Shown here in pieces: positions 296 through 63,843 of a stretch of 64,000 bases of DNA. Location of the stretch: contig JANFNE010000073.1 in assembly GCA_024867545.1 (NCBI GenBank), forward strand, positions 1 through 64,000. The letters run 5' to 3'. The number at the start of each line of letters is the position of its first letter. Positions within the stretch are counted from its first letter, which is position 1. The notes beneath the pieces were generated by a model. The model saw nothing but the letters and a program-made list of their open reading frames with translations, was not told where the DNA came from and ran no database searches. The translations under genes were made by a program, and so were the position numbers. Source of the DNA: Phytopythium helicoides. Lineage: Eukaryota; Oomycota; Peronosporomycetes; Pythiales; Pythiaceae.

Positions 296-313
296 GGCGG
301 CTGGAGGACGCAA

Positions 314-1197: not shown

Positions 1198-1260
1198 CCA
1201 CCGTGACGCTCCTCTGGTTGCAAGATGCAACTCGCATTGCGACCAATTGGTCTCGGCAGC

Positions 1261-1275: not shown

Positions 1276-1323
1276 ACGTCTTGAGCTCAAGCCTCGCCTG
1301 CATTAGCGCCTGCCAGCCCTCAT

Positions 1324-4065: not shown

Positions 4066-4089
4066 CCCCCCCCCCCCCCCCCCCCCCCC
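4066..4089. repeat. Poly(C) tract, 24 bp
   Basis: An uninterrupted run of 24 C residues on the + strand. The length is likely to be unreliable in an assembly. No gene overlaps it. Confidence 0.9.
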
Positions 4090-4751
4090 AACCAACAAAA
4101 CAAGCTTCACGACCAAGGCTTTCAAAGAGAAGACAGACTACGTCATATTCACCATCAACAAGCAGCCTGTCCAGTTCTTGACTGTTTTTGGTCTTTGGAA
4201 GGCGACTCGCTGGATACGGAATGTCAATTGGAAGGGGGAGCTCTAATTGTTGCAGTTGGCAACCCCTGATGGGAGAAGTATTCGCTACAAATTCGGAAAG
4301 ACTTGCGATTTTGAGCGGTGCTTGAGTGAACACACGAAAAATTTCGGGGAGCTGGGTTCATGCCAATCGAGCGCCATTGAGTGAAGATAAACGGGGAAAA
4401 CATGTCTGTTGGTGAGACTGCGCTCAATCATTATCTCAAAAAGCAAAAGTGGTACCGAGCCACCATGCTTTCATCCGAATGCGACCCCGAGGGCGAGGAC
4501 GATAAGCAAGACGCAATCCGCTTTATGAACTTCCGGAAGAATCCTTTGCAGATCATGTCCTGGTCCGGTCAGCATTGGTCAGGGCTGAACTGAATTTGAC
4601 CATATTACTCTATCACCCCTCTAAAACGATCCATGTACATCTACAATATAATAATGTGGGTGCACCCGTCACACTTCAGTGTATCCGTATCACTTCAACT
4701 TCAGCATCAACGTGTTCTAGTTGCCCAAACAACCACTACAGCTGCACAAAA

Positions 4752-9597: not shown

Positions 9598-9605
9598 GCG
9601 TTTTG

Positions 9606-9700
9606 ATTGGACGAAAACATTAATATTTAAGAGTGCTGATTGGTCCAAAAAAGTGGATGAATTTGATTGGTCAAAACATCCTGCTTGACGCGTTTATTGG
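9606..9700. promoter_or_regulatory. Four ATTGG (inverted CCAAT) boxes at about 30-bp spacing
   Basis: ATTGG occurs at 9606, 9639, 9666 and 9696, all in the same orientation, with start-to-start spacings of 33, 27 and 30 bp. The surrounding text is also similar (TTTGATTGG, GCTGATTGGTC, TTTGATTGGTC, TTTATTGGCC). It could be a diverged tandem repeat or a CCAAT-binding-factor array. The nearest solid gene, the kinase at 10685, is about 1 kb downstream. Confidence 0.45.
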
Positions 9701-10532
9701 CCAAGACGAACCATACTAAGATCAAGTTACGTCGGAAAGATGATGTTATTCATCCATACGCTGATATCGCGATCTCACAACGTCAATACCGCGACTTCCG
9801 ACCGTGGTTCACCAGCGTGAGGCTGGTCGCGGCTGACAACTTGTTCTCCAGCTACTACAAAGCACTGTTCACTTGAATTGTCTCCATCAGACGACCTTTT
9901 GCAATCTTTGACCGACATGGGATCATGAGCTGGAGTCTGAACCACTGCCTCCTCTTCTCTCAAAATGGGCGTGCACTGTTCTTCTGAGAGCGCGTTCTCA
10001 TTGTTATCTCTGGTTTCGAGTAGCTGGGGTCGGATGTGGGCAATGAAGCAGCAGATCAAGTTTGCAAAAGAGGAGTTTCTTTGACCAACAAAACGACCAC
10101 AATACAGACCAAATCCCTTCGAGTACGAGCTACTTTTGACCAGACTCGGAATAGACCTGCGAAGAAGAAGCTCACCGCTTGCGGTCGCACCAATTGGAGT
10201 AAACGGAGGTCGCAGCTTAATCCTCTCTCTGCCATTGGATTTCGCTCGTTCCACTCCGTGGATGGCCCAGGAGCTGTTGCAGCAGCCAAATGAGGCGAAC
10301 GAGCGTCTACAGGCTTGAAAAAGTCGCTGGATGCAGACGCAACGAACGTTTGATAGTGTTCGAAACGCGGGCGACAATGGGCTGGCCGAGGATCGCGCGA
10401 GCAGTGGACGCGCGGTTGCTAAACCCTCCACAACAGCATTCGCGCTATAAATGATATCCATTTCCCGCAACAAAGCGCCACTAAAACCCGTAATACCCGC
10501 TACTGATCACTCTCCTGATCACATATCTTCAA

Positions 10533-10556
10533 CATGGCTACATGGCTACATGGCTA
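10533..10556 (+). repeat. CATGGCTA octamer, three tandem copies
   Basis: Three perfect head-to-tail copies of CATGGCTA lie 129 bp upstream of the preferred kinase start codon. The same octamer occurs singly at 54491 and 54512 (5' of the IQ gene) and inverted at 60814 (upstream of HSP70-2). Confidence 0.7.
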
Positions 10557-10684
10557 CACTTGTGCGCCGGCCAGTTCAACACGCACGCGGGTCGCCTCCT
10601 TCGCCTCGCAGTCGCGGAATCGCCACCCACCGCCGCCGCGGTCCTCAGCTCCTGGCTCCCCCCAGGCCCTCGCAGCGCTTTTCC

Positions 10685-13282
10685 ATGCGCCGTCTGCCTC
10701 AGCTCGTCAGTCTCCGAGCTCTCCGACTGCTGCTGGTGGCCAATGAGCTCCTCGCCATCTCCAGCGCATCCACCTCCAGTCCTCAAGAGCTCAGTGAAGT
10801 CGAGGTCATCGCTTTGCATCGCCAGCTCACGTCGGCGCCTGCCAGTGCGTTCGCCAACGTGTCAACGCTCGAGGCGCTGGCCGCCAACATGTCAGTGCGC
10901 ATTGACGAGCGCTACGCGTTCGACGGCTCGCACTCGGACTTTGCGCAGCAGTTCTTCCGCCTGTACCTGTCCATCGGCGGCGACAACAGCCTCGGCGCCG
11001 ACCTGGCGAGCATCTCGGTGCCGGTGGCCGCGCAGGTCCCGAGCGAGGTCGTCTTGTACGTGCAGCAGGACTTCGGGCTCGCCTTCGACTCGCTGCCGGC
11101 GCTGCTGCAGCTCGCCGCCATCTGGGACAGCGGCTTCGTCTCGGCCTCGGCGCTGGGCTTCGTTCGCGTCCGCACGCGCTGCGGACTGCGCATGTCGGAG
11201 CTCGCGCTCTCGCTCGCGGCCTACCAGAGCGCTGGATGCGTCGAGCAGCCGTGCGCCTCGCCCAACGGCGAGCTCTTCTCGCAGTCACTGTACTGCAACG
11301 GCGATCAGATTGCTCGCGTCGCGTTGTGTGCGGCCTCGGACGGCGTGTCGCCCGTGCACGCGCCAATGTGGAGCGACGGTGGCGTGGACGACACGGTGCC
11401 GGTGGCGGAGATGGCCAAGCACCAGTGGACCGACGGCAAGGCGTACACGGTGTTCGCCATTCACTTGTCGGGAGACCCTAACACGTACGGCAAGTGCTCG
11501 CTGCCGTCCATGACCATCCCGTGTGTGCAGGACGACGGGTCGGACCAGTGGTGCTCGCCGGTGCGAGGTCGGTTGGTGGCCGAGTGGTTGGCCCACGAGC
11601 AGCGTCGCCAGCGGTCTCAAACGCAGCAGTCGACGGGGCAAGAGGTGTCGACGATGAACGAAGACGAGTCTTCCAGTTGGAACAGAGCGACGACAATCAT
11701 CGTGGCGTGTGTTGTCGCTGCGTTGGTGCTGGTGGTCGTGATCGCTGCGGTGTTTGTCATTTGGAAGCGAGAGCCACTCAAGCGTCGACGGAAGCGCGCC
11801 ATCCTTGGCGACGAGATGGCAGGTGGCGACTCGTGGAGCGACAGCGGAGACGAACGAGACAACAGCACAGAACCAGAGAGCGGACGGCACCACCGTGTCG
11901 ACTTTGCGCTTGAAGAGCCCTCAACACGCCAGTCGAGGTCGTTTGACATCCGCAACGCAGGGTCCAAGGAGAGTCCGAGGTCGCACAGGTCCCAACTGGC
12001 GGCGCACAAGCTGTCGATTTCGTTCGCGTCGTCGACGTCGATGCCGTTTTCTCCACCTTCATCACCTCCATCGTCACTTCGAGTCATTTCTGTAGCTCCG
12101 CAATTACCGGAGGAGCGCGAAATTCCAGCACAAGACAGCAGCCGGTCGGCTATGACATCAGCACGGACAGTGTCCTCTCTCGAGCCAACACAGCGCTGCG
12201 GCTCGTTGCTGAACTCGGCAGCGTCGATCATGATTACGAGCAACCCAGCACTCTCAGAGTCAGTGCAAGGCCCACTCAGGCCCGATAGCGCGCTCATCAC
12301 GCTGCCAGAAGATCCTCAGGTGCTTGCTCTGCGCGTGGAGCCATCGGACGTCCGGCGACTGAGTCAACTCGCAGTTGGTGCGTACGGAGAGATTTGGCTC
12401 GGTCGACTTCGTGGAGAGCTCGTGGCCATCAAGCGGCTGCGAGACGAGCGCAGGAAACGAATACGAGAGCTCGAGGCTTTTGCGGCCGAGATCCTGCTCA
12501 TGACGCGGCTCGCACACCCAAATGTGCTGGCGATACGAGCGGTTGCTTGGACGTCGTTGCCGTCGCTGAGCCTCGTCATGGAGTTCATGGAGAGAGGGGA
12601 TCTGCATCGCGTACTTCAGAAGGAGGGAGCGTGGCTCACTTGGAGCGTCGCCAAAGCTAAGCTAGCTCGCGATGTGGCGCGAGCGCTCGCGTACTTGCAC
12701 TCGCGAGGAGTTGTGCATCGAGATCTCAAGTCGAAGAATGTGCTAGTAGGAGAGGAGCTGGACGCCAAACTGAGTGATTTCGGCACAAGTCGTCATCGCT
12801 TGCGGCGGTCTGGGGTTATCAGTACCGGGCGAGATGTCAAGTGCAACAACCGAGAGTTTGACGAAGAACACGTTGCTGAAGAAGAGCGTGGGCTAGCGGA
12901 TGAAGAAGGAGATATGACTATGACTGCAGGGGTCGGCACGGCCTACTGGACGGCGCCAGAGGTGTTAGCTGGTGGACGGTACGCGGACAAGGCCGACGTG
13001 TACTCGTTCGGCGTCGTGTTGTCGGAGCTCGACACTTGTGAGCTACCATTTTCGAGCGGACCACTGGATTACTCGCGCTTGGCTGCGTCGATGCGACCGC
13101 TACAGGTGTTGAGTCTGATTTTGGACGGCAAGCTGCGACCTCGGTTCTTGCCGTCGTGTCCCAAGGCGGTTCGCAACCTAGCTGCTGCCTGCCTCCATGC
13201 GGATGTAGAAGCTCGGCCATCAGCTGTGGAGGTGGTCGAGGCGCTGGATGCCTTCATTGACGCACAATCGGGTCGAGCGTGA
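10685..13282 (+). CDS. TKL-type receptor-like protein kinase (single exon)
   Basis: 865 residues from the ATG at 10685. That start is preferred over the in-frame ATG at 10451 because it directly yields a signal peptide (MRRLPQLVSLRALRLLLVANELLA). The ectodomain (about 25-335) has several cysteines and no repeat I recognise. A transmembrane helix follows (about 337-361, TIIVACVVAALVLVVVIAAV), then a basic stop-transfer (KREPLKRRRKR) and a Ser-rich juxtamembrane region. The kinase domain (about 555-860) has glycine loop VGAYGEIWLG, VAIKRL lysine, VVHRDLKSKNVL, DFG and GTAYWTAPEVL, all intact, so it is probably active. An acidic insert (E-F-D-E-E-H-V-A-E-E-E-R-G-L-A-D-E-E-G-D) sits in the activation segment. 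The likely role is plasma-membrane signalling; the ligand is unknown. Confidence 0.9.
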   Translation: MRRLPQLVSLRALRLLLVANELLAISSASTSSPQELSEVEVIALHRQLTSAPASAFANVSTLEALAANMSVRIDERYAFDGSHSDFAQQFFRLYLSIGGDNSLGADLASISVPVAAQVPSEVVLYVQQDFGLAFDSLPALLQLAAIWDSGFVSASALGFVRVRTRCGLRMSELALSLAAYQSAGCVEQPCASPNGELFSQSLYCNGDQIARVALCAASDGVSPVHAPMWSDGGVDDTVPVAEMAKHQWTDGKAYTVFAIHLSGDPNTYGKCSLPSMTIPCVQDDGSDQWCSPVRGRLVAEWLAHEQRRQRSQTQQSTGQEVSTMNEDESSSWNRATTIIVACVVAALVLVVVIAAVFVIWKREPLKRRRKRAILGDEMAGGDSWSDSGDERDNSTEPESGRHHRVDFALEEPSTRQSRSFDIRNAGSKESPRSHRSQLAAHKLSISFASSTSMPFSPPSSPPSSLRVISVAPQLPEEREIPAQDSSRSAMTSARTVSSLEPTQRCGSLLNSAASIMITSNPALSESVQGPLRPDSALITLPEDPQVLALRVEPSDVRRLSQLAVGAYGEIWLGRLRGELVAIKRLRDERRKRIRELEAFAAEILLMTRLAHPNVLAIRAVAWTSLPSLSLVMEFMERGDLHRVLQKEGAWLTWSVAKAKLARDVARALAYLHSRGVVHRDLKSKNVLVGEELDAKLSDFGTSRHRLRRSGVISTGRDVKCNNREFDEEHVAEEERGLADEEGDMTMTAGVGTAYWTAPEVLAGGRYADKADVYSFGVVLSELDTCELPFSSGPLDYSRLAASMRPLQVLSLILDGKLRPRFLPSCPKAVRNLAAACLHADVEARPSAVEVVEALDAFIDAQSGRA

Positions 13283-13424
13283 ATGAGTCAAACGAGTACT
13301 GTTATTAACAGTTGACGGGTTGTTTTTTGTGTTTACAACTTCAACTTGTTTGTTATTACTTCAATTCAAATTGCTTCAACTCTGTACTCAGTCAGATCGC
13401 CAATCGCGAGCATCCAATCGATGG

Positions 13425-13823
13425 TCACGGTGACAGTGGCTCCAAGTCGTCGTCTATGACGCCAAAGAAGTCGGTCATATCACGGAGGAAGCTCAAAAGC
13501 TCCATCGGAAGTGGGTCTTGTGCGACTTCGTCCACTGGTTCACCGTCCCCAGCGACGACAGCATGCGCGGCGGCGTTCAACGATCGCGTGTAGCGGCGAC
13601 GCAGACTGAGCGCGCGAGAGAGCGTCTGGGTGCGCGTCTTGGTACCGATGTAGTTGGCGACGTCGAGCCACGAGCAGTCTGGAGGCAAGACCCACATAGC
13701 CTCATGCATCAGCCAGTGTTCTTCGTCGGTCCAGGTGGAGCGGCTGGCACGCTGAGCGCGGATGCGGCGCACGGGGGCATTGTAGTTGTCGAGCAGGAAG
13801 CGGCGCAGTGTCGGGTCAATCAT
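13425..13823 (-). CDS. Myb-like protein, copy C (intact)
   Basis: 132 residues from the ATG at 13823 (MIDPTLRRFLLDNY). The ORF is open further upstream, but family members consistently begin at M-[IV]-x-x-x-L-R-R. One Myb/SANT-like unit covers about residues 25-75: S-T-W-T-D-E-E-H, then DCSWLDVANYIGTKTRTQ, then LSRALSLRRRY. The second half of the classical SHAQKY signature is replaced by L-S-R-A-L-S-L. The C-terminus DDDLEPLSP matches other family members. It lies divergent to copy D, as A does to B. The predicted role is nuclear DNA binding; the target is unknown. Confidence 0.8.
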   Translation of the reverse strand: MIDPTLRRFLLDNYNAPVRRIRAQRASRSTWTDEEHWLMHEAMWVLPPDCSWLDVANYIGTKTRTQTLSRALSLRRRYTRSLNAAAHAVVAGDGEPVDEVAQDPLPMELLSFLRDMTDFFGVIDDDLEPLSP

Positions 13824-14606
13824 GGCGGCTGGAAGACGCAGAGCCGGTAGAGGCGGTGAGAGGTGTGGGTTTGGAGAGGAATTGACAAGTGAGCTCGGCT
13901 CGATCGTCCGCAGGTGGGTGCTGTCCTCCCATCGACGGCCCTCAATGAGGCAACGCATTCATTTTGGAAAGAAAGCGGTGGCGGGCGCGTGCCTCAAATA
14001 CAACGCCCTTCGCGCCTCCCTCCTTCGTAGGCCCGCTTCAATATGTATCTTTTTTGTCGTGCGTGCCTGTGGGACAAACTATTTTACGGTGAGCGTTCCA
14101 GTTCCAATACGCCGTAAAAGCGATTCTGAAATGCGCAGCCTATTTGTCAAAAGTGGTGGCCGTCTTGGCCACTACTTGCAAATGCACCACAAACACAATC
14201 GAGCCACCACATATGTCATGCCAATTCCCCTTTTGGCTAAATTAGTAAAATAGCCACCACTTCTGTCAAAAGCCCGCCGTTTCAGTCCCGTTGCACGCTC
14301 TGATGGGCTATAGTTTAATCTATATAAAACGAAGGCAATTCCCGTCCTGTGGCATCATCGTCGTGCGAGCCACGAGCAGTCTCGGCGCCGAGAAGATGTG
14401 AAGCGACCACATACAAAAACTAATAGAGTTGTGATCAGAGAAAATCCAGTCTGATACATGTAAGCAGCGATGGGCAAGCAGTCGGCCGCCGTGCCTTAGA
14501 CTAAGGCCCTTAGTCACCCGGTGAGCGGAACACGGGTACAGACAAAAAGCGCCCGTCACGCTGGCGCCTCAGAAGTCAGCCCGGAGAGCTACCCAGAACG
14601 CACAAC
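13824..14606. other. Divergent intergenic region between Myb copies C and D
   Basis: 13824-13950 is the leader shared with copy A. Around 14141-14272 the decamer-like motif GTGGTGGC/GCCACCAC recurs in both orientations, giving an imperfect palindrome near 14152-14176. No gene seen. Confidence 0.4.
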
Positions 14607-14665
14607 CGTGACGTTCCTCTGGTTGTAAGATGCAACTCGCATTGCGACCAATTGGTCTCGGCAGC

Positions 14666-14680
14666 TCATTCCCTAAATTC
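14666..14680 (+). promoter_or_regulatory. Initiator plus flanking-promoter-like element of Myb copy D
   Basis: TCATTCCCTAAATTC, 61 bp before the ATG, matches the oomycete Inr-FPR consensus and the same element in copy B. Confidence 0.55.
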
Positions 14681-14726
14681 ACGTCTTGAGCTCAAGCCTC
14701 GCCTGCATTAGCGCCTGCCAGCCCTC

Positions 14727-15524
14727 ATGGTCAGTCCGACGCTGCGCCACCAGCTACTACTGCACTTCGACCCCCTCCGACCCCGCCGCAGCGCACGCTC
14801 CACCTGGAGCTACGAGGAGGACCAGCGGTTCCATGAGGCTCTGCGGCTCCTGCCTCCAGACTGCTCGTGGCTCGACGTCGCCAACTACATTGGCACCAAG
14901 ACTCGCACTCAGACGCTCTCTCGCGCGCTCAGCCTCCAACGCCGCTACACGAGAGCCGATAGAAACCGGCAGCGAACGCTGGCGATGGTGATATCAAGCG
15001 AGCCAATACCCGCTTTGCTAAGCGCGTGGAGTGGCTACTGGGACTCATCGGCGATGTTTTCGACAGCCCAGCCGCTTCACGATCATGATCAGGCACCAAC
15101 GGCCGCCTCAATAACACGCATGGTGATACCCCATGATGTGTGGGCGGCACAATGGTGCTCCATCCAAGCACCGAGTCCTCTTGAGCTCCAGCTCGACCAC
15201 GCGATGGGAGGAACTCAATTTTATCACACCCCGATCCTCAACACTACCGACGAGACTGACGAGACCGCTATTCTCCACGATGCGCACCCCGAGCTATCTG
15301 CCATGTCGAACTCACATCTATCTAATGCGTCCAATGAGTTGGAGAATGAAACAGACAACCAAGGTCAAGTGTTTCAGGTGGATACGGCTATTGTGCAGGA
15401 GGCTGTCAACGGGATAGACATGCTCGCTCAAGCTCAAGAGATGGTCAGTGATGAAGCTCGGTGGAATGAGCTTATCAGTCTCATCCCCGACGACATCGAA
15501 CTCGTCGACTTTATTGACGACTAG
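14727..15524 (+). CDS. Myb-like protein, copy D (intact)
   Basis: 265 residues from the ATG at 14727 (MVSPTLRHQLLLHFD). The Myb-like domain is near residues 25-75: S-T-W-S-Y-E-E-D-Q-R-F-H-E-A-L, then DCSWLDVANYIGTKTRTQ, then LSRALSLQRRY. A basic linker (R-A-D-R-N-R-Q-R) follows, then a long acidic Ser/Thr-rich C-terminal half that could be an activation region. The end (DDIELVDFIDD) is shorter by a few residues than copy B's frame, because GAC AAG has become GAC TAG. It is the intact counterpart of pseudogene B; homology runs from about 14607 to 15706. Confidence 0.85.
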   Translation: MVSPTLRHQLLLHFDPLRPRRSARSTWSYEEDQRFHEALRLLPPDCSWLDVANYIGTKTRTQTLSRALSLQRRYTRADRNRQRTLAMVISSEPIPALLSAWSGYWDSSAMFSTAQPLHDHDQAPTAASITRMVIPHDVWAAQWCSIQAPSPLELQLDHAMGGTQFYHTPILNTTDETDETAILHDAHPELSAMSNSHLSNASNELENETDNQGQVFQVDTAIVQEAVNGIDMLAQAQEMVSDEARWNELISLIPDDIELVDFIDD

Positions 15525-15706
15525 TGGGAGCCTCCCGCACCATGAAGAATGTGGTATCGGATGTATGCATCGAGTGTTGGTTGGCTTTGCTTTTGTATGC
15601 TAGATTAGATTATGCGAAGTGTTTGCCTGTCGTGGTTGCTGCCATGATGGTTTGAGAGAGCCGGGTGAATTTTACCAAGTTTTTTACCTTGTTATTCCGG
15701 GAGGTT

Positions 15707-16408
15707 GGCTCAGTCCAATTTGATCACTCCTGGTACTGTCAGCTTAACGTCCACGATGTCGCTTATAACTACTTCATGGGGCCGCCAACCTGTCGTTACT
15801 GAATGCTGAGATCCCAAATCACACACACAGTGCTGCAGTAATGAGAGATGCTGCGTATGTGTTCGTAGTATAGCACAGATATTCGAGTTAAAGCGAGGTG
15901 CAGTGGATACCTCAATGTGCTCGCATTTCCAAGCATCGCTATGGATGCGACTGTTGGTTGAGTACCCCTCGGACGAGATGCTTTCTCAGACTGTCGTAGA
16001 ATGCGAAAATAAACCTCGAGAACTTGGTCTGTTGTCGACAAACTCGCACGAGAGAACCAACCACAGAACCAAATTGGCATTTCTTGAAAAGAGGTCCTTC
16101 CAACGCTAGTGTTTATTGCAAGTAGAGTGATATCACTATCCATTGTGCCGTCAAAAGTGTCATTTATTGTTTCCTTGTAAACCTAAGCCGTGAATATTAC
16201 CATCTGAATCATGAAACGGTAGAGTAACTAATGATCTCTCCAGACGACCAAACGCTTGCTTTGACATCATATATGGAGTAGTAGGCGCTGTAGGCACCAA
16301 TTCTACATTGCTACGACGACTCTATATCGATGTGAAGATTGCACATTTGTCTGAATCGAAATGTTGTCCTCTAGACCAATAGGGCCAAGCATGGGAGAGG
16401 CTGGCGTA
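15707..16408. other. Intergenic, no gene seen
   Basis: AT-richer DNA between the copy D duplication end and the outer edge of the Myb palindrome. Short frames only, with no motif. Confidence 0.5.
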
Positions 16409-16834
16409 GCGACCATCTACTATACGGTTCAACCGAACACGTTACACAGAGTGCCGAAACGACACTCGCGTCAATCGACACTGGCGACTCATCAGGCGTA
16501 GTGTGGCGTTATCGTCAGGCGTAGCATGACGACCCAAGAAATTTCTTCGGCAGCCATAGTACTCACCGCATCAATCGTCTAACCAATCATTTGTAACCCT
16601 GTCCATTCCGTTGTCGGACGATGGAAAGGCAAAAATGAGCTGTTGAATCAAGTCAATTCGCTCGATATTTGTCGAGAATCAGATGACAGTTACAGAATAT
16701 AGCGCTCTCGGCACCTTTGAACACGTGAAAGTTCAACCAAAGCAAGCCCCACAACTCTCAAGTACCGTACTTGTAATGTGTACAGCTCAAAATGGGTAGT
16801 CTCGAACTCACCCCAAACGAGCTTGAGGATCTCG

Positions 16835-16857
16835 TCATTCTTTCATTTAGCAATTCG
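16835..16857 (+). promoter_or_regulatory. Initiator-like element of Myb copy E
   Basis: TCATTCTTTCATTTAG overlapping TCATTTAGCAATTCG lies 63-85 bp before the ATG and resembles the oomycete Inr-FPR consensus. The equivalent position in copy F reads TCATTAAGTAATTGG on the minus strand, a weaker match. Confidence 0.45.
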
Positions 16858-16919
16858 TCAGGGTCTGGCACTACCTTCCGGTTCCAACTGGCTTGAGAAC
16901 ACGCAACTCTCGGGAACGC

Positions 16920-17648
16920 ATGATTGGTACAAAGCTGCGTCGCTTCCTTCTGAACCACTACGATGCATCCCAGCCAAATCATGGTAGTTGCTGGAGCAGA
17001 GAAGAAGACAGACTCTTCCATGAAGCACTGCATCTACTTCCTGACGACTGCACATGGGAAGACGTTGCAAGCTACATTGGCAGCAAGACCCGTACACAGA
17101 CATTATCACGTGCACTTAGCCTACACCGACGCTACAAGAGGATCACCCACACGCCTTTACTGGCAGTGAGGGGGCGGGCTATCTTGCCGCAACCCTCTTA
17201 CCACGGTGCCTCGTTTCGTAACTCAGCCATAGTACCAGCAACAGTTTCATCACCGGCGTCAACGCATGGACCTATGTCACCGTTCATTGCGCCGATGATT
17301 GTGACCCCAATCGATCACCCAATACAGTCGGAGTGGAACCTCAATTGTTTCGGACCCGAGGTCGACTTTATGGTGGAAGAAGTTTCAGGATACCAGATCT
17401 CGAGCGTTATGGACAGTGCAGCTTCTCAGAGTGAGCAGTCTGAATTGACCTGCAAGATGATGCCACTTCCGGTTGCTTGCAGCAATGTCAATGGTGAGCT
17501 CGACCAACCAATATATGCGCCGAATACGGTCGACACTGGTGCCATTTTCGAAACTTTTGATGGTGAAGCGTTGCCGCTTGAAGAACTTTGGAGCTACTTG
17601 AGTGGATTCCTCTCCAAACGTCAATTGAATCTGCTTCTTGCTAGGTGA
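16920..17648 (+). CDS. Myb-like protein, copy E (left palindrome arm)
   Basis: 242 residues starting MIGTKLRRFLLNHYD, with the start chosen by family alignment. The Myb-like domain (about 25-76) reads C-W-S-R-E-E-D-R-L-F-H-E-A-L, then DDCTWEDVASYIGSKTRTQ, then LSRALSLHRRYKR. The remainder is acidic and Ser/Thr-rich. A missing G near 17601 relative to copy F shifts the last residues, so E ends ...LWSYLSGFLSKRQLNLLLAR whereas F ends ...LWSYLEWIPLQTSIESASC. Other coding differences from F that I found are one Ala/Val (YAPNT versus YVPNT) and one synonymous GGT/GGC. It is convergent with copy F. Confidence 0.85.
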   Translation: MIGTKLRRFLLNHYDASQPNHGSCWSREEDRLFHEALHLLPDDCTWEDVASYIGSKTRTQTLSRALSLHRRYKRITHTPLLAVRGRAILPQPSYHGASFRNSAIVPATVSSPASTHGPMSPFIAPMIVTPIDHPIQSEWNLNCFGPEVDFMVEEVSGYQISSVMDSAASQSEQSELTCKMMPLPVACSNVNGELDQPIYAPNTVDTGAIFETFDGEALPLEELWSYLSGFLSKRQLNLLLAR

Positions 17649-17676
17649 TTTCTAGCAATTCTTGTAGCAATTGTAA

Positions 17677-17773
17677 TCAATTCGATGTGATTGTGACATC
17701 TGTTGAATTATCTTGAACATCCATTTTCGGATATACTCATCGCTCCAAAACCAACGGGGGAATACATTTGCAG
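17677..17773. other. Palindrome centre, 97-bp spacer
   Basis: Single-copy DNA between the two arms. It separates the stop codons of two convergent, nearly identical genes, so read-through transcripts from either would be antisense to the other. Confidence 0.8.
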
Positions 17774-19020
17774 TTACAATTGCTACAAGAATTGCTAGAA
17801 ATCACCTAGCAAGAAGCAGATTCAATTGACGTTTGGAGAGGAATCCACTCCAAGTAGCTCCAAAGTTCTTCAAGCGGCAACGCTTCGCCATCAAAAGTTT
17901 CGAAAATGGCACCAGTGTCGACCGTATTCGGCACATATATTGGTTGGTCGAGCTCACCATTGACATTGCTGCAAGCAACCGGAAGTGGCATCATCTTGCA
18001 GGTCAATTCAGACTGCTCACTCTGAGAAGCTGCACTGTCCATAACGCTCGAGATCTGGTATCCTGAAACTTCTTCCACCATAAAGTCGACCTCGGGTCCG
18101 AAACAATTGAGGTTCCACTCCGACTGTATTGGGTGATCGATTGGGGTCACAATCATCGGCGCAATGAACGGTGACATAGGTCCATGCGTTGACGCCGGTG
18201 ATGAAACTGTTGCTGGTACTATGGCTGAGTTACGAAACGAGGCACCGTGGTAAGAGGGTTGCGGCAAGATAGCCCGCCCCCTCACTGCCAGTAAAGGCGT
18301 GTGGGTGATCCTCTTGTAGCGTCGGTGTAGGCTAAGTGCACGTGATAATGTCTGTGTACGGGTCTTGCTGCCAATGTAGCTTGCAACGTCTTCCCATGTG
18401 CAGTCGTCAGGAAGTAGATGCAGTGCTTCATGGAAGAGTCTGTCTTCTTCTCTGCTCCAGCAACTACCATGATTTGGCTGGGATGCATCGTAGTGGTTCA
18501 GAAGGAAGCGACGCAGCTTTGTACCAATCATGCGTTCTCGAGAGTTGCGTGTTCTCAAGCCAGTTGGAACCGGAAGGTGTATCCGGAAAGTGGCCAATTA
18601 CTTAATGAGAGAACTGCAGGTGGTGTCAATCGCTAGAAGGTCATTTGGCAAGAGCTCTACGCGCATGTAGCAGTTCTTGAGACCAACGAAGCTTGCTTTG
18701 GTTGATACATTTCATGTTCAAAGGTGCCATACTCTGTAACTGTCGCCTGATTCTCGATAACTCTCGATCAAGTCGGCTTGATTCAACAGCTCTGTTGGTT
18801 TTTCCATCGTCCGACAATGAAATGAGCAGATTACAAATGATTGGTCGGACGACTGATGCGGTGGGTGCGTCGCGCGCCGCTGAAGAAATTGCGTAGGTCG
18901 TCATCCTACACCTGGCTGGTCGCCATACTACGCCTGATGAATCGCCAGTCTCGAATGACGCAAGTGTCGTTTCGACACAAACCCCATTGTGTTTGACTGT
19001 ACCGTAAAGTAGATGATCGC
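17774..19020 (-). repeat. Right arm of the 2.6-kb inverted duplication
   Basis: Reverse complement of 16409-17676. It is near-identical over 17774 to about 18575 and diverged but alignable outward to about 19020. It carries Myb copy F. Confidence 0.9.
17806..18531 (-). CDS. Myb-like protein, copy F (right palindrome arm)
   Basis: 241 residues from the ATG at 18531 (MIGTKLRRFLL). Upstream in-frame codons exist, but the family start is used. It is the same protein as copy E through the Myb-like domain and acidic tail, except one Ala/Val change and a different C-terminus caused by a one-base indel. F's C-terminal reading aligns better with the family than E's does (Y-L-E-W-I against F-F-E-R-I in the gene at 19896-20705). 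It therefore probably retains the ancestral frame. Confidence 0.85.
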   Translation of the reverse strand: MIGTKLRRFLLNHYDASQPNHGSCWSREEDRLFHEALHLLPDDCTWEDVASYIGSKTRTQTLSRALSLHRRYKRITHTPLLAVRGRAILPQPSYHGASFRNSAIVPATVSSPASTHGPMSPFIAPMIVTPIDHPIQSEWNLNCFGPEVDFMVEEVSGYQISSVMDSAASQSEQSELTCKMMPLPVACSNVNGELDQPIYVPNTVDTGAIFETFDGEALPLEELWSYLEWIPLQTSIESASC

Positions 19021-19895
19021 GTTCTCATAGCTTGACCTCTTTCCATAAGCGCAGATGCAGAGTACGCCAGACAGGGGTCGAGTCTTCACCTCAATAGGGA
19101 TCGACTCTGGAGAATGGCAGCTAGAATGGCAGCTCGAATACTGCTGGACTTTTCCATCTCGTGACTATCTGCAGCAAATTTCTTCAGCTCTATGGCGCCT
19201 GCCTGCCAGCACCAACCTTGATTCAAGCGATAATCTCCCTACGCGGTGCTCGTACTAGCTCGCTAGGAGATTGGTTACGTTAGCGTATAGAAGACTACCA
19301 GGTTGTTTCCTCCTACGCCTCGAGTGATTACTCTTCAGCGGCTCCGTCGTCTCCGTCACTTATTACTTCACCGCCATCTCTGCTGTCTCTGTTGCCTCTG
19401 TCGTTTCTGTTGTCTCCGCCGCTTTCTTCTTGCTCGTGCTGTGACTAAATACCCATCGCCTGCTGACTTCTGCCGTCCTTTGTGGGTCTGAGCTCTGCTG
19501 AGAGACTCCAAATGAATTGGCATGGCGCTGTTGACTCTACCTTGCTCCAACTGGTGAAACAGCGCAAAGAATAGCCCAAGATAACAAGCAAAATCGTAGC
19601 TACGATACTACCAACTAGCGAGCGTGCATGATTGATATGCTACATAGAGAACAGAGTTGAAGCTTAGAGTTTGAAGTTGGTGCCTGCAATACGAAAACAG
19701 GCATTCGATATCGCTGGTAAACTTATTGAGTGCTTCTTACATGAACTACTTTGAATTGAGAGAGTGGCATGTACATGATGATATCATAGGTCGTTAACTA
19801 AATGTACGCATGCTTGATAGTTTTACTCACCCAACTTCACATTGGCTGCCCCCCTTCGTGAGCTTTGATATGCTATAGGGGAAAAACTAATCAAT
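19021..19895. other. Intergenic with pyrimidine-rich tract
   Basis: No gene supported. A CTG/TCT/CCG-rich imperfect repeat runs from about 19340 to 19435 and creates a spurious basic/Gln-rich frame on the minus strand. Confidence 0.45.
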
Positions 19896-34839: not shown

Positions 34840-36260
34840 ATGGACTCGCTGCTCTTTGACCAGTCGTACGCTACGCTGGACGAGCTTGCGGCCTCGGCTG
34901 CATTCCTGATCGATGACAGCGACTCGTCCGACCTCTCGGTTGCTGGCGGTATCTCCTCGCCACAGCCGTCGAGCTTTGCGCCGCGTCAACTGTTCGCCCC
35001 GGACGCTGATAAAGCTGATCAGAGCGAGCAAGAGAAGAAGGCGAGGCGACGAGCGCAAGTTGCGAGCAGCTCTCGACGGCAGCGCTCGCGTCGAAAGGTG
35101 CGATGCCATGAAAGTAGCTGCTTTGACTCGGTCTCGTCACTGAAAATGTGCAACCGAACGTGAGCCCAGATGGAAGCCACGAGGCTGCGAGACCAGGCTT
35201 CGCTACTTGAAAGCCACCTCGAGCTGCTGCGGTCGAGGCACAAGATGCTGCGTATCAGCAACGAGGCGGCTGAGTGGGAGGAGAAGGCCATCACGCGGCG
35301 GCTGCGCAGGCGCCACGCCGAACAGACCAACGTGGCGCTCAAGGCGTCGGTGTACCAGTATTCTCGCTACCTGTTGGAGTTCCGCTCCGTGTTCTCCAAC
35401 TCCCCGCTTGTGAATCCGGTGCGTAGACCTCGTGATTGCTAGCGTGCCTTTCACTTCTGACACGAGTTTTGTGTGGACTCTAGGAGCTCAATCTTGGCGA
35501 CATCCTGCACTCGTACCTCCACTTGTCGGCTGATCCAGTAGCCCGTGAGCGTGACTACCTTGCGATCTGCACGAATGAGCGACTCGACTTAGCCGCGCAG
35601 ATCTTTGCGCGGGAGACGGCCGGGCTGCCTGTTGTGTCCCCTTCGATCACCACTCGCACAGTTCGCGGAGGCCAAGGTCGATGCTTTGGCGTGACCACAG
35701 TCGCGGCGTTCGCGTTTGAAACGCGAGACGTTGGGCACATCTTTCGCACAGCGTGTAGTGCCATCCTTGACTGTGTGTCCGAGTGGCCACAGCATCGGCT
35801 CGCCAACACTTACGGGCTTGTGGTCGACTCTCCGTCGGGATCAATCCGCTACGGCACCTCCGACACGACCTACCAGAGCCTCGAGAGCGGCGAAAACCTG
35901 GCGCTGCAGGCACGCTCACTGTCGTTCTCTCGGCTCACCGACTCGTGCGGCGTGCTGCTGTTCGACTTTGTGGACGCCGACGACCTGTACCCGATTTCCA
36001 GCGATGCGAGCCTGCGTCGCGACGAGATCGGCGGCATCCTAGTCCGGAGCGAGGTGTGCGAGGACGGCGTGGAGCGCACCGTGGGCCGTCTGGTTTGCTC
36101 CAAGCTGTTCGGCCGCACCCACGCCTCGGAGAGCGGGCAGCTATCCCCCGCGATCGCGCACTTCGCGGAGCTCGCGGCCTCTGCCGCGACCGTGTGCGGC
36201 ACTCGCGTGTTCAACGCGATCCGCTCGGGCTCGGCGGACTGCTGCCACGTGACCGTCTGA
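34840..36260 (+). CDS. bZIP + START-like protein 2 (M96-like family), 3 exons
   Basis: Exons 34840-35097, 35170-35418, 35484-36260; introns 72 and 65 bp; 427 residues. The N-terminus is acidic (DELAASAAFLIDDSDSSD). The basic region KKARRRAQVASSSRRQRSRRK is split from the zipper (SLLESHLELLRSRHKML) by intron 1 exactly at its end. The usually invariant basic-region Asn aligns with Ala. A helical middle domain is encoded by a 249-nt exon (NEAAEWEEKAITRRLRRRHAEQ ... YLLEFRSVFSNSPLVNP). The C-terminal START-like half contains ICTNERLDLAAQIFARETAG, VDSPSGSIRYGT and VRSEVCEDGVERTVGRL. Closest to gene 3 at 40997-42344. Confidence 0.9.
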
Positions 36261-40996: not shown

Positions 40997-42344
40997 TCAC
41001 ACTGTGAAGTGACAGCCTTGCATTGTGCCGGAGCGAATCGCATTGTACACGGTTGTTCCGCAGGCGATGGCGCTGCTTGTGGCAAATTTTGCAAAATGCC
41101 CGATTGCTGGCGGGAGTCCGTCATCGCTGCCAGTGATCTCGGCTCGCCCGTACAGCTTGGAGGCTATCAATCGCCCAACCACACGCTCCTCGCCATCCTC
41201 ACACACCTCTCGCCGCACAAGGATGCCACCAACGCGGTCGTGGCGAAGGTTTGCGGTGCTCGGAATCGGATGCAGGTCGTCGTCGTCTACGTAGTCCAAC
41301 AACAGCACGCCGTACGAGTCGGTGAGTCTGGAGAAGGACAGCACGCGTGACCTCAGTGCAAGGTTAGCACCGCTCTCGTCGCTCTGGTAGGTTGTGTCGG
41401 CGATGCCATAGCGAATTGTTCCTGATGGGGAGTCGACGACAAATCCGTATGTGTTCGCGACGTGGTGTCGCGGCCACTCGGACACACAGTCGATGAGACG
41501 ACTGCACGCCATGTCAAATACGTGCTTGAGGTCCAAGGTGTCGAATGAGACGGCGCCAACTACAGTCACGCCGAATTGTTGTCCAAGGGCGTCCTCTAGA
41601 ATTGCGCGCGTCGAGAGCGTCGGTGAAACTACTGGCATGCCTGCAGTCTCCCGCGCAAAGATCTGCGCGGCCAAGTCGAGTCGCTCATTCGTGCAGATCG
41701 CTAGGTAGTTGCGCACGCGAGCCATCGGGTCCGTCGGCAAGCGAATGTATGAGTGTAAGATGTCGCGGAGGTTGAGCTCCTGCGAAAGCACCAAGTCAGT
41801 TGTCCACGATCTCAACAGCTCCAACCCACGACGCCATTCACAAAACACACCGGATTCAACAGCGGGGAGTTGGAGAACACGGAGCGGAACTCCAACAGGT
41901 AGCGAGAATACTGGTACACCGACGCCTTGAGCGCCACGTTGGTCTGCTCAGCGTGGCGCCTGCGCAGCCGCTGTGTGATGGCCTTCTCCTCCCACTCGGC
42001 CGCTTCGCCGTTCAAGCGCAGCTTCTTGTGCCTCAACCTCAGCAGCTCGAGCTGGTTCTCCAAAAGTGACGCCTCCATGCGCAGGTCCACGGCCTCCACC
42101 TACAAAAGCACCTCCCGGCTCAGTCCCGCGCTCGCAGCAGCCCGCCGTCCTGCAGTCCTCGAGCAAGTCGCTACCGCACCTTGCGCTTGGACCGCAGCCG
42201 CCGCGAGCTGCTGGCGGCCTGAGCCCGTCGCCGTGCCATCTTCTTCTCGTCATCTGCGGCCCGCGACTGCTCCGCCGAGCGCTCGCCGTCGCTCAGCAGC
42301 GCCGCGAGCTCGCCCAGCACCTTGTCGGCCGCGCCAAGTTCCAT
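40997..42344 (-). CDS. bZIP + START-like protein 3 (M96-like family), 3 exons
   Basis: Exons (minus) 42344-42180, 42099-41851, 41779-40997; introns 80 and 71 bp; 398 residues. The start ATG at 42344 begins MELGAADKVLGELAALLSD. The basic region reads KKMARRRAQAASSSRRLRSKRK and the zipper SLLENQLELLRLRHKKL. As in gene 2 the expected Asn is Ala. The middle exon is again exactly 249 nt. The START-like half contains ICTNERLDLAAQIFARETAG, VDSPSGTIRYGI and VRREVCEDGEERVVGRL and ends ...GCHFTV, close to gene 2's ...CCHVTV. Its stop lies 110 bp from the stop of the convergent P5A ATPase. Confidence 0.92.
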
Positions 42345-50294: not shown

Positions 50295-51577
50295 TTGGCG
50301 GGGGCGGCGGGCGCGGGGGGCGGAGCGCGGCGGCCTTTCTCGCTGGAAGGCGGCGGGCGCGGCCTTCGGAGGTGTTCGGGGTCGGCGAAACAAGGAGAAG
50401 TGAGGGGAGAAACGGGGTTCCGCAGGTGTATGGAAGAAAGACACGCGGGGGAGGGAGGACGCGCGTTTGCGGCGGCAGGGAGGCCGCGGTTTTGAACAGG
50501 GGGAGGGGGGACGTCGCCCCTCCCCAGCCAGTCGGCTGTGGTCGTGGGGACTGTTCCGCGCGGATGCGCCACCACGGACACGGGCATACCCAGCGCAAGT
50601 GGCCGCGACCAAAGACACCGCGGCTTTACGGAGTTGTGGACTGAACATACGCCCCATGGGGGCTTGCGAGAACGAGTGGGGGGCCTGCGGTCGTGCAAAA
50701 GATAGAGACGAAACCGATGGCCGGAGGATCCTGCGCGGCTATTCGTAACCCGCAGCCAGCACTTGGAGAGCGCCTGCGATCACCTTTGGACGCGTGCGCT
50801 ACAAGTAACGCGCGCGATGACTCGGCTTCTGGAACAATCGATGGGGTTCTTTGGGACGACCATCTCCCCGGTCGTCCAGACATAGCCGCACTTGGCGTTT
50901 GTATACCGCGTAGGATCCGACAGACGACCACCTACCGGAGCTTCTATAATTAGCGCCGGTATTTATACAATTTACAAATATGGCAAGTCACGGCGACCAA
51001 TGCGATCCATTTGTCTGCCTTCGCGTGTGAAGCCACGCTCGTGGCGACTTCAACATGGAGCGATCACACAGCTGTTTCATCAACTGCCAGCGCCACGGAA
51101 CACCAAGGAATTCGAGTCAGCCGCGCTGCGGCAGTCGCGAAACAAAGCGAAAAGAAACGCCACCGCCCGAATTAGCATTGCGAAGCAGCGAAAGGCGACG
51201 ATGATACAAAAATCCTGAAACAGGATGCAAAGATTCCAAGGATGTGGTTGGCAACGAGTTACCAGCACACACGAAGCCAGAGCGAGTGGTAATAGCCTTA
51301 CGCAATGATATTTTAGGTTTTCGCGTCTCGACACCGCCGGCAATCACATACCATGCGGGCCATTTCTATCTAGCACCGATCTCCTCTTTCCTATCCTCCG
51401 ACCAGCGACGCCAAGACGCTTGGTGTCCTCTTCAGTCATCCTTCTCTGTCTTTCAGTGTCGCGCGCTCCGCCCTTCAACTAGCGAGTGCAATCCACGCCG
51501 ACGCCTCCCTGCGCGACTCAGTCCAAGACTCGCTCTCCGCGAGACTAGACTCGACTTCACACACCGACGAAGACCGC
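50295..51577. other. Upstream region of the HTH gene and downstream region of HSP70-1
   Basis: No gene supported. The part from about 51468 is the transcribed 3' region of HSP70-1, shared with HSP70-2. Confidence 0.45.
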
Positions 51578-53567
51578 TTAGTCGACCTCCTCGATCTTCG
51601 GGCCCTGGTCCGCACCGCCCGAAGGAGCAGCACCCGCACCAGGCATGTCGCCACCAGGCATGCCGCCAGGAGCGCCGCCAGCAGCAGCGTACATCTTCTG
51701 CAGAATAGGGTTCGCAACACCCTCCAGCTCCTTCTGCTTCGCCTCGTACTCCTCCTTCTCCGAAGACTGGTTCGCGTCCAGCCAGTTGATCGTCTCCGTC
51801 ACCTTGTCGTCAATAGCCTTACGGTCCTCCTCAGAGATCTGGCTCTTCAGCTTCTCGTCGTTCAGCGTGTTGCGGAGGTTGTACGCGTAGTTCTCAAGAC
51901 CGTTCTTCGCGTCGATGCGGACCTTGTTCGCCTCGTCCTCAGCCTTGTACTTCTCCGCCTCCGCAACCATGCGGTCAATGTCCGCCTGCGACAGACGACC
52001 CTTGTCGTTCGTGATCGTGATCTTGTTCTCCTTGCCAGTAGACTTCTCCACAGCAGACACGTTCAGGATACCGTTCGCGTCAATGTCGAACGTCACGTCG
52101 ATCTGAGGCACGCCACGAGGCATCGGCGGAATGCCGTCCAGGTTGAACTTGCCCAGAAGGTTGTTGTCGCGCGTCATCGAACGCTCACCCTCGAACACCT
52201 GGATAAGCACACCAGGCTGGTTGTCCGCGTACGTAGAGAACGTCTGCGACTTCTTCGTGGGAACCGTCGTGTTACGCGGGATCAGCGTCGTCATCACACC
52301 ACCCGCCGTCTCCAGACCAAGCGACAGAGGCGTCACATCCAGCAGAAGCAGGTCCTGCAGCTTCTCCGAAGAGTCGTTGCCGCTCAGGATAGCAGCCTGC
52401 ACCGTCGCGCCGAAGGCCACAGCCTCGTCCGGGTTGATCGACTTGCACGGCTCCTTGCCGTTGAAAAAGTCGGACAGCAGCTGCTGCACCTTCGGGATAC
52501 GCGTCGAGCCACCCACAAGCACAACCTCGTGCACCTGGCTCTTCGACAGCTTCGCGTCGCGGAGCACCTTCTCCACAGGCTCCATCGTCTTGCGGAAGTA
52601 GTCGCCGCACATGTCCTCGAAACGAGCACGCGTGATCGTGGAGTTGAAGTCAATGCCGTCGAACAGAGAGTCGATCTCAATGTACGCCTGCGCAGACGAA
52701 GACAGCGTGCGCTTGGCGCGCTCACAAGCAGTGCGCAGACGACGCAGCGCACGCTGGTTCGTCGTGATGTCCTTGCGGTGCTTGCGCTTGAACTCCTGCG
52801 TGAAGTGCTCCACCAGGCGGTTGTCAAAGTCCTCACCGCCAAGGTGCGTGTCACCAGCCGTAGCCTTCACCTCGAAGATACCCTCCTCAATGCTCAGGAG
52901 CGACACATCGAAGGTACCGCCGCCAAGGTCGAAGATCAGCACGTTGCGCTCGCCGCCCTTCTTGTCCAGACCGTACGCGATAGCGGCGGCCGTCGGCTCG
53001 TTGATGATACGCAGCACGTTCAAGCCGGCAATCGCACCAGCGTCCTTCGTCGCCTGACGCTGCGAGTCGTTGAAGTACGCCGGCACCGTGATCACCGCGT
53101 TCTTCACCTCCTTGCCAATGAACGCCTCCGACACCTCGCGCATCTTGATCAGCACCATCGACGAAATCTCCTCCGGCTGGAACGTCTTCGACTCGCCCTT
53201 GAACTGCACCGTGATCTGCGGCTTGTCGCCCGGACCCGCCGACACCGTGAACGGCCAGTGCTTGATGTCCGCCTGCACGATCGGGTCCGTGAACTTGCGG
53301 CCGATCAGGCGCTTCGCGTCGAACACCGTGTTGTGCGCGTTCATCGCCACCTGGTTCTTGGCGGCGTCACCGATCAGGCGCTCCGAGTCCGTGAACGCCA
53401 CGTACGACGGCGTCGTGCGGTTGCCCTGGTCGTTCGCGATGATCTCCACGCGGTCGTTCTGCCACACGCCCACGCACGAGTACGTCGTGCCGAGGTCGAT
53501 GCCCACCGAGTAGCCAGACACAGCCTGCGCCATCTTCACTTGTTGCTTCTAGTTGCTTGTTGCTTGT
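51468..53567 (-). repeat. HSP70 inverted repeat, copy 1
   Basis: About 2.1 kb matching 61030-63137 in reverse complement. It covers about 34 bp of 5' leader, the whole coding region and about 110 bp of 3' region, with a few synonymous differences. The intervening 7.5 kb contains the IQ/EF-hand gene. Confidence 0.92.
51578..53533 (-). CDS. HSP70: Cytosolic HSP70, copy 1
   Basis: 651 residues, ATG at 53533 ([19 protein letters not shown]); the frame continues upstream only through GTG-AAG. ATPase signatures [26 protein letters not shown] and [13 protein letters not shown] are present. The Gly/Met/Pro-rich tail ends in E-E-V-D, the TPR-cochaperone motif of cytosolic/nuclear HSP70s. Protein sequence is identical to copy 2. 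The ATP-dependent chaperone folds nascent and stress-damaged proteins. Upstream (53534-54090) there are several heat-shock elements, so it is probably heat-inducible. It is transcribed away from copy 2. Confidence 0.98.
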
Positions 53568-60791: not shown

Positions 60792-61062
60792 GCGGACACC
60801 ATCCAACCGAGTGTAGCCATGTCAACATGTCAAGCAAAGCGTAGCCATACCGATCACGTACCGGTATCTTTAGTACTGTTTGCGACCGGTCTTCCAGAAC
60901 ATTCGACTGCCTGGGTTCGCATACTCAACCCAAGTGTCGTTGTGGTGTCCCCCCCTCCGTCCTCCATCCTCCGCGATCCAAGCTCCCCTCCACCTCCCAG
61001 TCAGTCACTTAGCAATTTGCAAGCGACCGCAAGCAACAAGCAACTAGAAGCAACAAGTGAAG
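60792..61062. other. Promoter region of HSP70-2
   Basis: Contains the HSE at 60892, an inverted CATGGCTA octamer at 60814, and a pyrimidine-rich leader. Confidence 0.55.
60892..60904. promoter_or_regulatory. Perfect three-unit heat-shock element of HSP70-2
   Basis: TTC-ca-GAA-ca-TTC, 159 bp upstream of the HSP70-2 ATG. This flank is outside the inverted repeat, so the two HSP70 promoters are not copies of each other. Confidence 0.75.
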
Positions 61063-63137
61063 ATGGCGCAGGCTGTGTCTGGCTACTCGGTGGGCATCGA
61101 CCTCGGCACGACGTACTCGTGCGTGGGCGTGTGGCAGAACGACCGCGTGGAGATTATCGCGAACGACCAGGGCAACCGCACGACGCCGTCGTACGTGGCG
61201 TTCACGGACTCGGAGCGCCTGATCGGTGACGCCGCCAAGAACCAGGTGGCGATGAACGCGCACAACACGGTGTTCGACGCGAAGCGCCTGATCGGCCGCA
61301 AGTTCACGGACCCGATCGTGCAGGCGGACATCAAGCACTGGCCGTTCACGGTGTCGGCGGGTCCGGGCGACAAGCCGCAGATCACGGTGCAGTTCAAGGG
61401 CGAGTCGAAGACGTTCCAGCCGGAGGAGATTTCGTCGATGGTGCTGATCAAGATGCGCGAGGTGTCGGAGGCGTTCATTGGCAAGGAGGTGAAGAACGCG
61501 GTGATCACGGTGCCGGCGTACTTCAACGACTCGCAGCGTCAGGCGACGAAGGACGCTGGTGCGATTGCCGGCTTGAACGTGCTGCGTATCATCAACGAGC
61601 CGACGGCCGCCGCTATCGCGTACGGTCTGGACAAGAAGGGCGGCGAGCGCAACGTGCTGATCTTCGACCTTGGCGGCGGTACCTTCGATGTGTCGCTCCT
61701 GAGCATTGAGGAGGGTATCTTCGAGGTGAAGGCTACGGCTGGTGACACGCACCTTGGCGGTGAGGACTTTGACAACCGCCTGGTGGAGCACTTCACGCAG
61801 GAGTTCAAGCGCAAGCACCGCAAGGACATCACGACGAACCAGCGTGCGCTGCGTCGTCTGCGCACTGCTTGTGAGCGCGCCAAGCGCACGCTGTCTTCGT
61901 CTGCGCAGGCGTACATTGAGATCGACTCTCTGTTCGACGGCATTGACTTCAACTCCACGATCACGCGTGCTCGTTTCGAGGACATGTGCGGCGACTACTT
62001 CCGCAAGACGATGGAGCCTGTGGAGAAGGTGCTCCGCGACGCGAAGCTGTCGAAGAGCCAGGTGCACGAGGTTGTGCTTGTGGGTGGCTCGACGCGTATT
62101 CCGAAGGTGCAGCAGCTGCTGTCTGACTTTTTCAACGGCAAGGAGCCGTGCAAGTCGATCAACCCGGACGAGGCTGTGGCCTTCGGCGCGACGGTGCAGG
62201 CTGCTATCCTGAGCGGCAACGACTCTTCGGAGAAGCTGCAGGACCTGCTTCTGCTGGATGTGACGCCTCTGTCGCTTGGTCTGGAGACGGCGGGTGGTGT
62301 GATGACGACGCTGATCCCGCGTAACACGACGGTTCCCACGAAGAAGTCGCAGACGTTCTCTACGTACGCGGACAACCAGCCTGGTGTGCTTATCCAGGTG
62401 TTCGAGGGTGAGCGTTCGATGACGCGCGACAACAACCTTCTGGGCAAGTTCAACCTGGACGGCATTCCGCCGATGCCTCGTGGCGTGCCTCAGATCGACG
62501 TGACGTTCGACATTGACGCGAACGGTATCCTGAACGTGTCTGCTGTGGAGAAGTCTACTGGCAAGGAGAACAAGATCACGATCACGAACGACAAGGGTCG
62601 TCTGTCGCAGGCGGACATTGACCGCATGGTTGCGGAGGCGGAGAAGTACAAGGCTGAGGACGAGGCGAACAAGGTCCGCATCGACGCGAAGAACGGTCTT
62701 GAGAACTACGCGTACAACCTCCGCAACACGCTGAACGACGAGAAGCTGAAGAGCCAGATCTCTGAGGAGGACCGCAAGGCTATTGACGACAAGGTGACGG
62801 AGACGATCAACTGGCTGGACGCGAACCAGTCTTCGGAGAAGGAGGAGTACGAGGCGAAGCAGAAGGAGCTGGAGGGTGTTGCGAACCCTATTCTGCAGAA
62901 GATGTACGCTGCTGCTGGCGGCGCTCCTGGCGGCATGCCTGGTGGCGACATGCCTGGTGCGGGTGCTGCTCCTTCGGGCGGTGCGGACCAGGGCCCGAAG
63001 ATCGAGGAGGTCGACTAAGCGGTTTTCGTCAGTGTGTGAAGTCGAGTCTAGTCTCGCGGAGAGCGAGTCTTGGACTGAGTCGCGCAGGGAGGCGTCGGCG
63101 TGGATTGCACTCGCTAGTTGAAGGGCGGAGCGCGCGA
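61030..63137 (+). repeat. HSP70 inverted repeat, copy 2
   Basis: Reverse complement of 51468-53567. Differences I found by eye within the coding region are synonymous third-position changes (for example ATC/ATT in R-V-E-I-I-A-N and TCC/TCT in L-L-S-D-F). Confidence 0.92.
61063..63018 (+). CDS. HSP70: Cytosolic HSP70, copy 2
   Basis: 651 residues, ATG at 61063. The protein is identical to that of copy 1 (51578-53533), ending PKIEEVD. All HSP70 signatures are intact. Strong codon bias is visible (G/C-ending codons; TTA, CTA and TCA effectively absent), typical of very highly expressed genes. It is the right-hand member of the inverted pair and has its own HSE at 60892. Confidence 0.98.
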
Positions 63138-63843
63138 CAGAGTTTGCGTTGACCTCGATGGTCATCTGCTTGAGTAGGAAAAACTTTTCGTTGTTGCCGT
63201 AGAAGGCGCAACAGCTAAAATACATGACATTCCAGTCACAAGCGTCAAGGTTTGAACTGTTTGGTGGTGCTTTGATTTTGAACTGAGTTTGTGAGTGCGC
63301 TGCCTCAAAGCAAAGAACAGCGGTTGGCTTCCAACATTTTTCATCATAGAGTCGAGGATTTCTGCAATGACCCATGGTTTTGCGCAAGTCCAAGAATCAT
63401 CCCGCTAGATTTGGTTGGCATGAAGGGCTGGAGGGGGTGCTGTGCGCTGTGCGGTGCTGCAGATCTGCGTGACGACACCCGTCACCGATCATTGCGGCCG
63501 TCAAAGCACTTCACAGTGCAGCCAGCATATCGGCAGCCGCAATGGAGGTTTGGCTAGAATTGCTGCCTCTGCGAGAACCGAGTTGTCCAAAGTGAAAGCT
63601 CAGTTTATCATGCGGACTCCCTCATGCCTGCCATCTTCAGACTGCATGGTCCATTGTTCTCTCGACTGCTCCTGCAGCCAGCAGCGCCTCGAATCGACGG
63701 ACACCAGCGCCTTCCAATCTGATTTTCAAGCGCATGGGTTCGCTTTTCTCCCGAAACCGCACTTAGCGGGGGTGGGTCGCCGATGGATTTTCCGCCGCCG
63801 CCTGGATCGAGTCCGCGCACTGCCGCTCGCCGCCCGCCCCGCC
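63019..63843. other. Intergenic between HSP70-2 and syntaxin gene
   Basis: To about 63137 it is HSP70-2 3' region, shared with copy 1. Beyond that no gene is supported. Confidence 0.5.

Follow-up and report, generated by a model that had tools for sequence, protein, structure and literature searches.

The window, i.e. the whole stretch of 64,000 nucleotides that was analysed (C72:1-64000), contains two Myb-like genes that lie tail to tail on the arms of a palindrome. Self-comparison of the window placed the inverted arms at 16838-17676 and 17774-18613, flanking a centre of 97 bp (17677..17773). The arms paired in two segments, 16838-17600 with 17851-18613 (763 nt, 98%) and 17600-17676 with 17774-17850 (77 nt, 100%). 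The left gene (16920..17648, + strand) encodes 242 aa and the convergent right gene (17806..18531, - strand) 241 aa, and their stop codons are separated by 157 bp. Each is a single-repeat Myb-like gene that passed the Pfam cut-off for Myb_DNA-binding (PF00249; 27.4 bits each, cut-off 24.4, profile positions 3-37 of 46). Over 16881-17676 the two arms differed at 3 of 796 aligned bases and by one 1-bp indel. A first-pass annotation of this DNA had described a near-perfect Myb palindrome with a 97-bp centre and coding arms differing at a handful of bases, and this description was accurate.

In Myb proteins of the SHAQKYF class, the Myb repeat ends in the motif of that name. Inspected by eye, the palindrome pair lacks it and reads TLSRALSLHRRY at this position, whereas SHAQKY is present in the ORF at 24750 and THAQKY in Myb genes on C28. 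A protein-database search returned no relatives of the left protein at E 0.001 among 273 candidates, and no AATAAA or ATTAAA hexamers were found in 17600-17850 when both strands were checked. It had also been proposed that the convergent mRNAs are mutually complementary over their coding length and could form dsRNA. The geometry contradicts this: genes on tail-to-tail inverted arms give the same sense sequence, so that their mRNAs cannot pair along the coding region. A hairpin would be expected only from read-through RNA that crosses the centre and continues into the second gene.

Whole-genome searches, which covered 49.06 Mb in 100 contigs, detected the palindrome at two places, in the window and on a second contig, C11 (C11:92876-95489), each matching in both orientations. 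A protein search of the genome gave 24 matches, among them four close genes, two per contig, with 90-100% identity; the remaining matches reached 43% across three quarters of the sequence, or no more than 64% when restricted to the domain. C11 was collinear with the window over 19.9-64 kb (92.8% identity) and over 14.6-19.8 kb (91.0%). For the window piece at 43-47 kb, the only full-length match elsewhere was on C11 (94%), accompanied by three short ones of 72-73%. Because of this collinearity and the sole full-length match, the two contigs may represent two haplotypes or two subgenomes. The comparisons below are based on these two homologous contigs of one assembly.

On C11 the centre has the same orientation as in the window and differs at 4 of 97 bases. 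The C-termini of the left genes were altered in different ways. In the window, the base at 17599, which is present in the three other copies, is missing from the left gene, so that the final 15 residues of its product no longer match the right copy, and on C11 a stop codon occurs five codons early (C11:94118). Both right genes encode 241 aa. In the adjacent Myb cluster (1-15700 in the window, C11:76500-92200), gene order and gene copies differ between the contigs; in the window, the inverted Myb copies located there are about 85% identical over 159 bp, compared with 93-96% over 770-844 bp on C11.

The four arms, left and right from each contig, were aligned, and sites were scored as by side (left like left and right like right across contigs), by contig (both arms alike within a contig) or crossed. 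Within C11 the arms differed from each other at 7 of 797 positions. Between the contigs, the left arms differed at 47/796 and the right arms at 48/797 positions, and 42 of these 47-48 differences were mirrored in both arms. Further 5′ the pattern was reversed: 16300-16872 contained 141 by-side sites, one by-contig site and 69 singleton or mixed sites, vs. 42 by-contig and no by-side sites in 16887-17676. From 16873 onward 11 singleton or mixed sites were counted in the arm, and crossed sites were not found anywhere in the Myb alignment. In the AU test, the arm favoured a topology that joins left and right within a contig (delta lnL 117), and the flank one that joins left with left and right with right (delta lnL 240). 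In each case both alternative topologies were rejected.

The grouping switched between the last by-side site (16872) and the first by-contig site (16887), i.e. 48-33 bp 5′ of the ATG. The left homogenised block accordingly spans 16887..17676 (+ strand) and its mirror on the right 17774..18564 (- strand), where 18564 was taken from the ungapped arm pairing. Since the flanks pair by side and the arms by contig, the four-arm alignment establishes that the inverted duplication, including its 5′ flanks, is older than the split of the contigs and that the arms were homogenised later, separately in each contig. Most likely the arms were already alike at the split, because their divergence between contigs (~6%) is comparable to the value for the flanks (4-8%).

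Homology between the 5′ flanks extends to about 16409/19020. As had been stated in the first-pass annotation, they carry many substitutions and indels: in the window, left and right were 72.7% identical over 16409-16880 (122 of 447 bases different, 30 gap columns), and on C11 140 of 447 bases differed. The flanks of the two contigs differed at 21/472 (left) and 35/452 (right) positions. Identity along the palindrome thus falls outside the arms, as the earlier description implied, but not in a plain step from near-identity to divergence. Directly upstream of the genes, the left block 16766..16838 (+ strand) and the right block 18613..18673 (- strand) showed no detectable homology to each other (z 1.1, 300 shuffles). 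Further out, 16451-16745 was again about 81% identical to its mirror in the window (53/283 differences) and 79% on C11 (60/283), with z about 18. The outer flanks, 16409..16765 on the left (+ strand) and 18674..19022 on the right (- strand), are older remnants of the inverted duplication. By the same site patterns, the end of the homogenised tract demonstrably coincides in the two contigs and lies near the block without detectable homology.

The first-pass annotation had placed ongoing arm-to-arm conversion near the centre of the palindrome. While the four-arm comparison with C11 supports conversion between the arms, a focus on the centre was not observed. Of the seven positions at which the C11 arms disagree, five are at the inner end (17626-17673), and the longest run free of differences in both contigs is located mid-arm (16917-17517). 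A small cluster of differences on C11, at 17626-17633, indicates that conversion extends unevenly towards the centre. GC-biased conversion was considered and dropped: the by-contig arm sites split 16 vs. 15 between G/C and A/T in the two contigs, a count that displays no asymmetry and, without an outgroup, is uninformative on direction.

Apart from the Myb cluster, self-comparison of the window at E 1e-10 detected just two inverted pairs, and these served as controls; both were added after the Myb result was known. The first consists of two genes which we take to be of HSP70 type from their sequence (51457..53566, - strand, and 61030..63139, + strand), 7.5 kb apart and 99.7% identical. Inside 61030-63139 there were 27 by-contig sites, no by-side site and one crossed site; the nearest by-side sites were at 61029 and 63141, and one by-contig site lay outside. 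Within the contigs these arms differed at 6 and 7 of 2110 positions, between them at 34 (left-left) and 33 (right-right), and the identical block in the window starts 33 bp 5′ of the ATG. On these site patterns, the HSP70-type pair is homogenised separately on each contig. The second control, a diverged inverted pair of 75% identity (35195..36115 and 41145..42074), had 174 by-side sites, one by-contig and one crossed site in 917 columns and is not homogenised; its ORF at 40997 had no Pfam match at E 0.001. The HSP70-type pair being homogenised and the diverged pair not, homogenisation does not depend on proximity of the arms, and it spares a pair in which much homology has been lost.

Further inverted Myb pairs were present on C28 (183-185 and 172-175 kb). 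Their arms were 94% and 87% identical within an arrangement and about 90% between the arrangements, with no clear-cut pattern. In both (L025 1312-3396, i.e. C28:183.3-185.4 kb, and C28:172.5-174.9 kb), inverted SHAQKY-like Myb genes share 450-460 bp at 94-98% identity and differ in their C-terminal parts. The second arrangement is a 90% identical copy, located about 8 kb away in opposite orientation.

To describe the upstream regions, a combined INR+FPR consensus (YCAYTYY, 2 nt, MWTTTNC; element definitions as given in PMC3599244) was scored. A predicted INR+FPR-like initiator matching 13 of 14 positions lies 85 bp 5′ of the left ATG (16835..16850, + strand), and the best match of the right gene (18593..18608, - strand) reached 11 of 14; both scores were the same in the two contigs. 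Among 4000 random 120-bp pieces, 0.8% reached 13/14 and 22% reached 11/14. Seven of the 14 upstream pieces scored reached 13/14. The four HSP70-type copies matched at 13-14 positions and four unrelated window genes at only 10-11, which is unsurprising because the combined motif is estimated, according to the same report, in about 13% of P. infestans promoters. The good initiators of the HSP70-type copies are compatible with an oomycete origin of the DNA. From these motif matches, the left and right Myb genes would have different core promoters.

Repeated arm-to-arm gene conversion likely keeps the coding arms near-identical, a reading to which we assign a probability of about 0.9; its trace ends 33-48 bp 5′ of the ATGs, and the sequence beyond has diverged. 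Taken alone, the identity of the arms within the contigs (99.1-99.6%) would fit arms that are simply young, the palindrome having arisen twice by a recent inverted duplication in each lineage. The left and right flanks are, however, homologous and yet differ at 27-31% of aligned bases, while each flank is 92-96% identical to its own side on the other contig, so both sides predate the split; moreover, the centre is 93/97 identical and in the same orientation in both contigs. Unless the flanks were misassembled, this pattern refutes independent duplications, and we regard them as very improbable. Just as improbable is an artefact of the assembly, in the form of a fold-back chimera or a collapsed copy. 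Fold-back artefacts do yield near-perfect inverted repeats, but they predict identical arms without diverged homologous flanks, and here the flanks carry indels and the structure recurs on two contigs that differ in sequence; on the C11 copy and these flanks the artefact was rejected.

The codons bear on whether strong purifying selection for one protein could have produced the likeness without any conversion. In its favour, the end of the gene encoding the Myb domain (16920-17165) displayed 3 differences in 246 bp when the contigs were compared, and no difference between the arms. Yet of the 22 amino-acid differences that separate the contigs in the first 226 codons, 21 occur in both arms, as do 9 synonymous codon differences, and selection would not put the same synonymous changes in two copies. 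Moreover, the C-terminal part changes fast (dN/dS ~0.6), which leaves selection alone the least probable of the alternatives, with hardly any chance of being correct. Between contigs, dN/dS was ~0.53-0.56 (0.041/0.074 and 0.043/0.081), so that the Myb-like protein evolves fairly fast, and both copies do so in step. Within the Myb domain, 206 bp (16954-17159) were invariant across the four copies, and 17166-17400 differed by 8.5% between contigs. The dS value was 0.037 in the Myb-domain part vs. 0.096-0.107 further on, with the small number of differences in the former (3 in 246 bp) to be kept in mind. A templated form of conversion, in which RNA or cDNA of one gene serves as template for repair of the other and the tract equals the transcribed unit, has more to recommend it but is still unlikely. 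The identical tracts in the window start 33-47 bp before the ATG in both homogenised pairs and downstream of the predicted initiators (at -85 for the left Myb gene, at -58 to -64 for the HSP70-type genes), and all four Myb and HSP70-type genes in the window are uninterrupted reading frames. The same boundary is, however, expected from faster decay of homology in non-coding flanks, the right Myb gene has no good initiator match, and these genes have no known intron that would separate a cDNA from a DNA template.

If arm-to-arm conversion is the correct reading, its agent would probably be ordinary homologous recombination between the arms, proceeding by non-crossover conversion or by mismatch repair of an extruded hairpin, and the loss of homology upstream would block the conversion tract. 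The effect would be a single protein whose two copies evolve together under different promoters, with an INR+FPR initiator predicted for the left gene and none for the right. A more far-reaching version appears doubtful to us, namely that the locus acts as a one-protein, two-promoter device, in which conversion is limited to the transcribed unit, both copies of the fast-changing Myb regulator evolve as one protein, and selection or a heterology barrier protects two distinct core promoters, one with the INR+FPR element and one without. The HSP70-type pair would obey the same rule, its tract stopping shortly 5′ of the ATG and downstream of the predicted initiators, a hint that transcription or transcripts may set the limits of the tract.

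The locus combines palindromic Myb-like genes that change in step with upstream regions that diverge. It offers an unusually clean natural record, with two homologous palindromes, a boundary confined to 15 bp and both a positive and a negative inverted-pair control within 64 kb, and it brings the question of what determines where a conversion tract ends within reach of a test. Gene conversion between the arms of inverted repeats is a known process, and it is the boundaries that are unusually clear here. Among the matches listed from the open-licence literature, titles and abstract openings gave no description of such gene pairs in an oomycete; a review (PMC3966223) names adjacent inverted pairs for which there is evidence of conversion.

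The closest known system, as outlined by Zhao et al. 2007 (PMC1803023), are the inverted-repeat paralogous gene pairs of Caenorhabditis, which are convergent or divergent and structurally conserved between species. The arms within one species often resemble each other more than they resemble those of another species, gene conversion was suggested as one mechanism, and the examples given have spacers of 126 and 414 bp. The Myb palindrome shares the near-perfect inverted repeat, the short spacer and the likeness of arms within a lineage: its arms are paralogous, and they differ less within than between two lineages, these being two contigs of one genome and not two species. In contrast to the Myb tract, which excludes the upstream region, the repeats maintained in Caenorhabditis include intergenic sequence between the genes according to that account. 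Further differences are that the edge of the tract is mapped here, that the duplicated flanks can still be aligned, and that the genes are single-repeat Myb genes of what is likely an oomycete. The palindromes of mammalian sex chromosomes likewise have arms of >99% identity, which gene conversion maintains (PMC8981503). They are described there as large (arms up to >1 Mb, median 37 kb in the simulations of that article) and GC-biased, whereas the Myb arms measure 0.8 kb and display no GC asymmetry, the direction being unreadable without an outgroup. Concerted evolution has been reported for the hsp70 genes of Drosophila (PMC2871787, citing Bettencourt and Feder 2002); gene and lineage differ from the Myb palindrome, and the HSP70-type pair at 51.5-63.1 kb is the closer parallel. 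In Saccharomyces, the recurrent homogenisation of genes in a sporulation family has been given as the cause of an inversion polymorphism (PMC9731477). As reported there, that case shares with the present one a recurrent homogenisation in a gene family that is linked to an inversion, but involves a 24-kb region found in two orientations, unlike the 97-bp centre of the Myb palindrome, which has kept the same orientation in both contigs.
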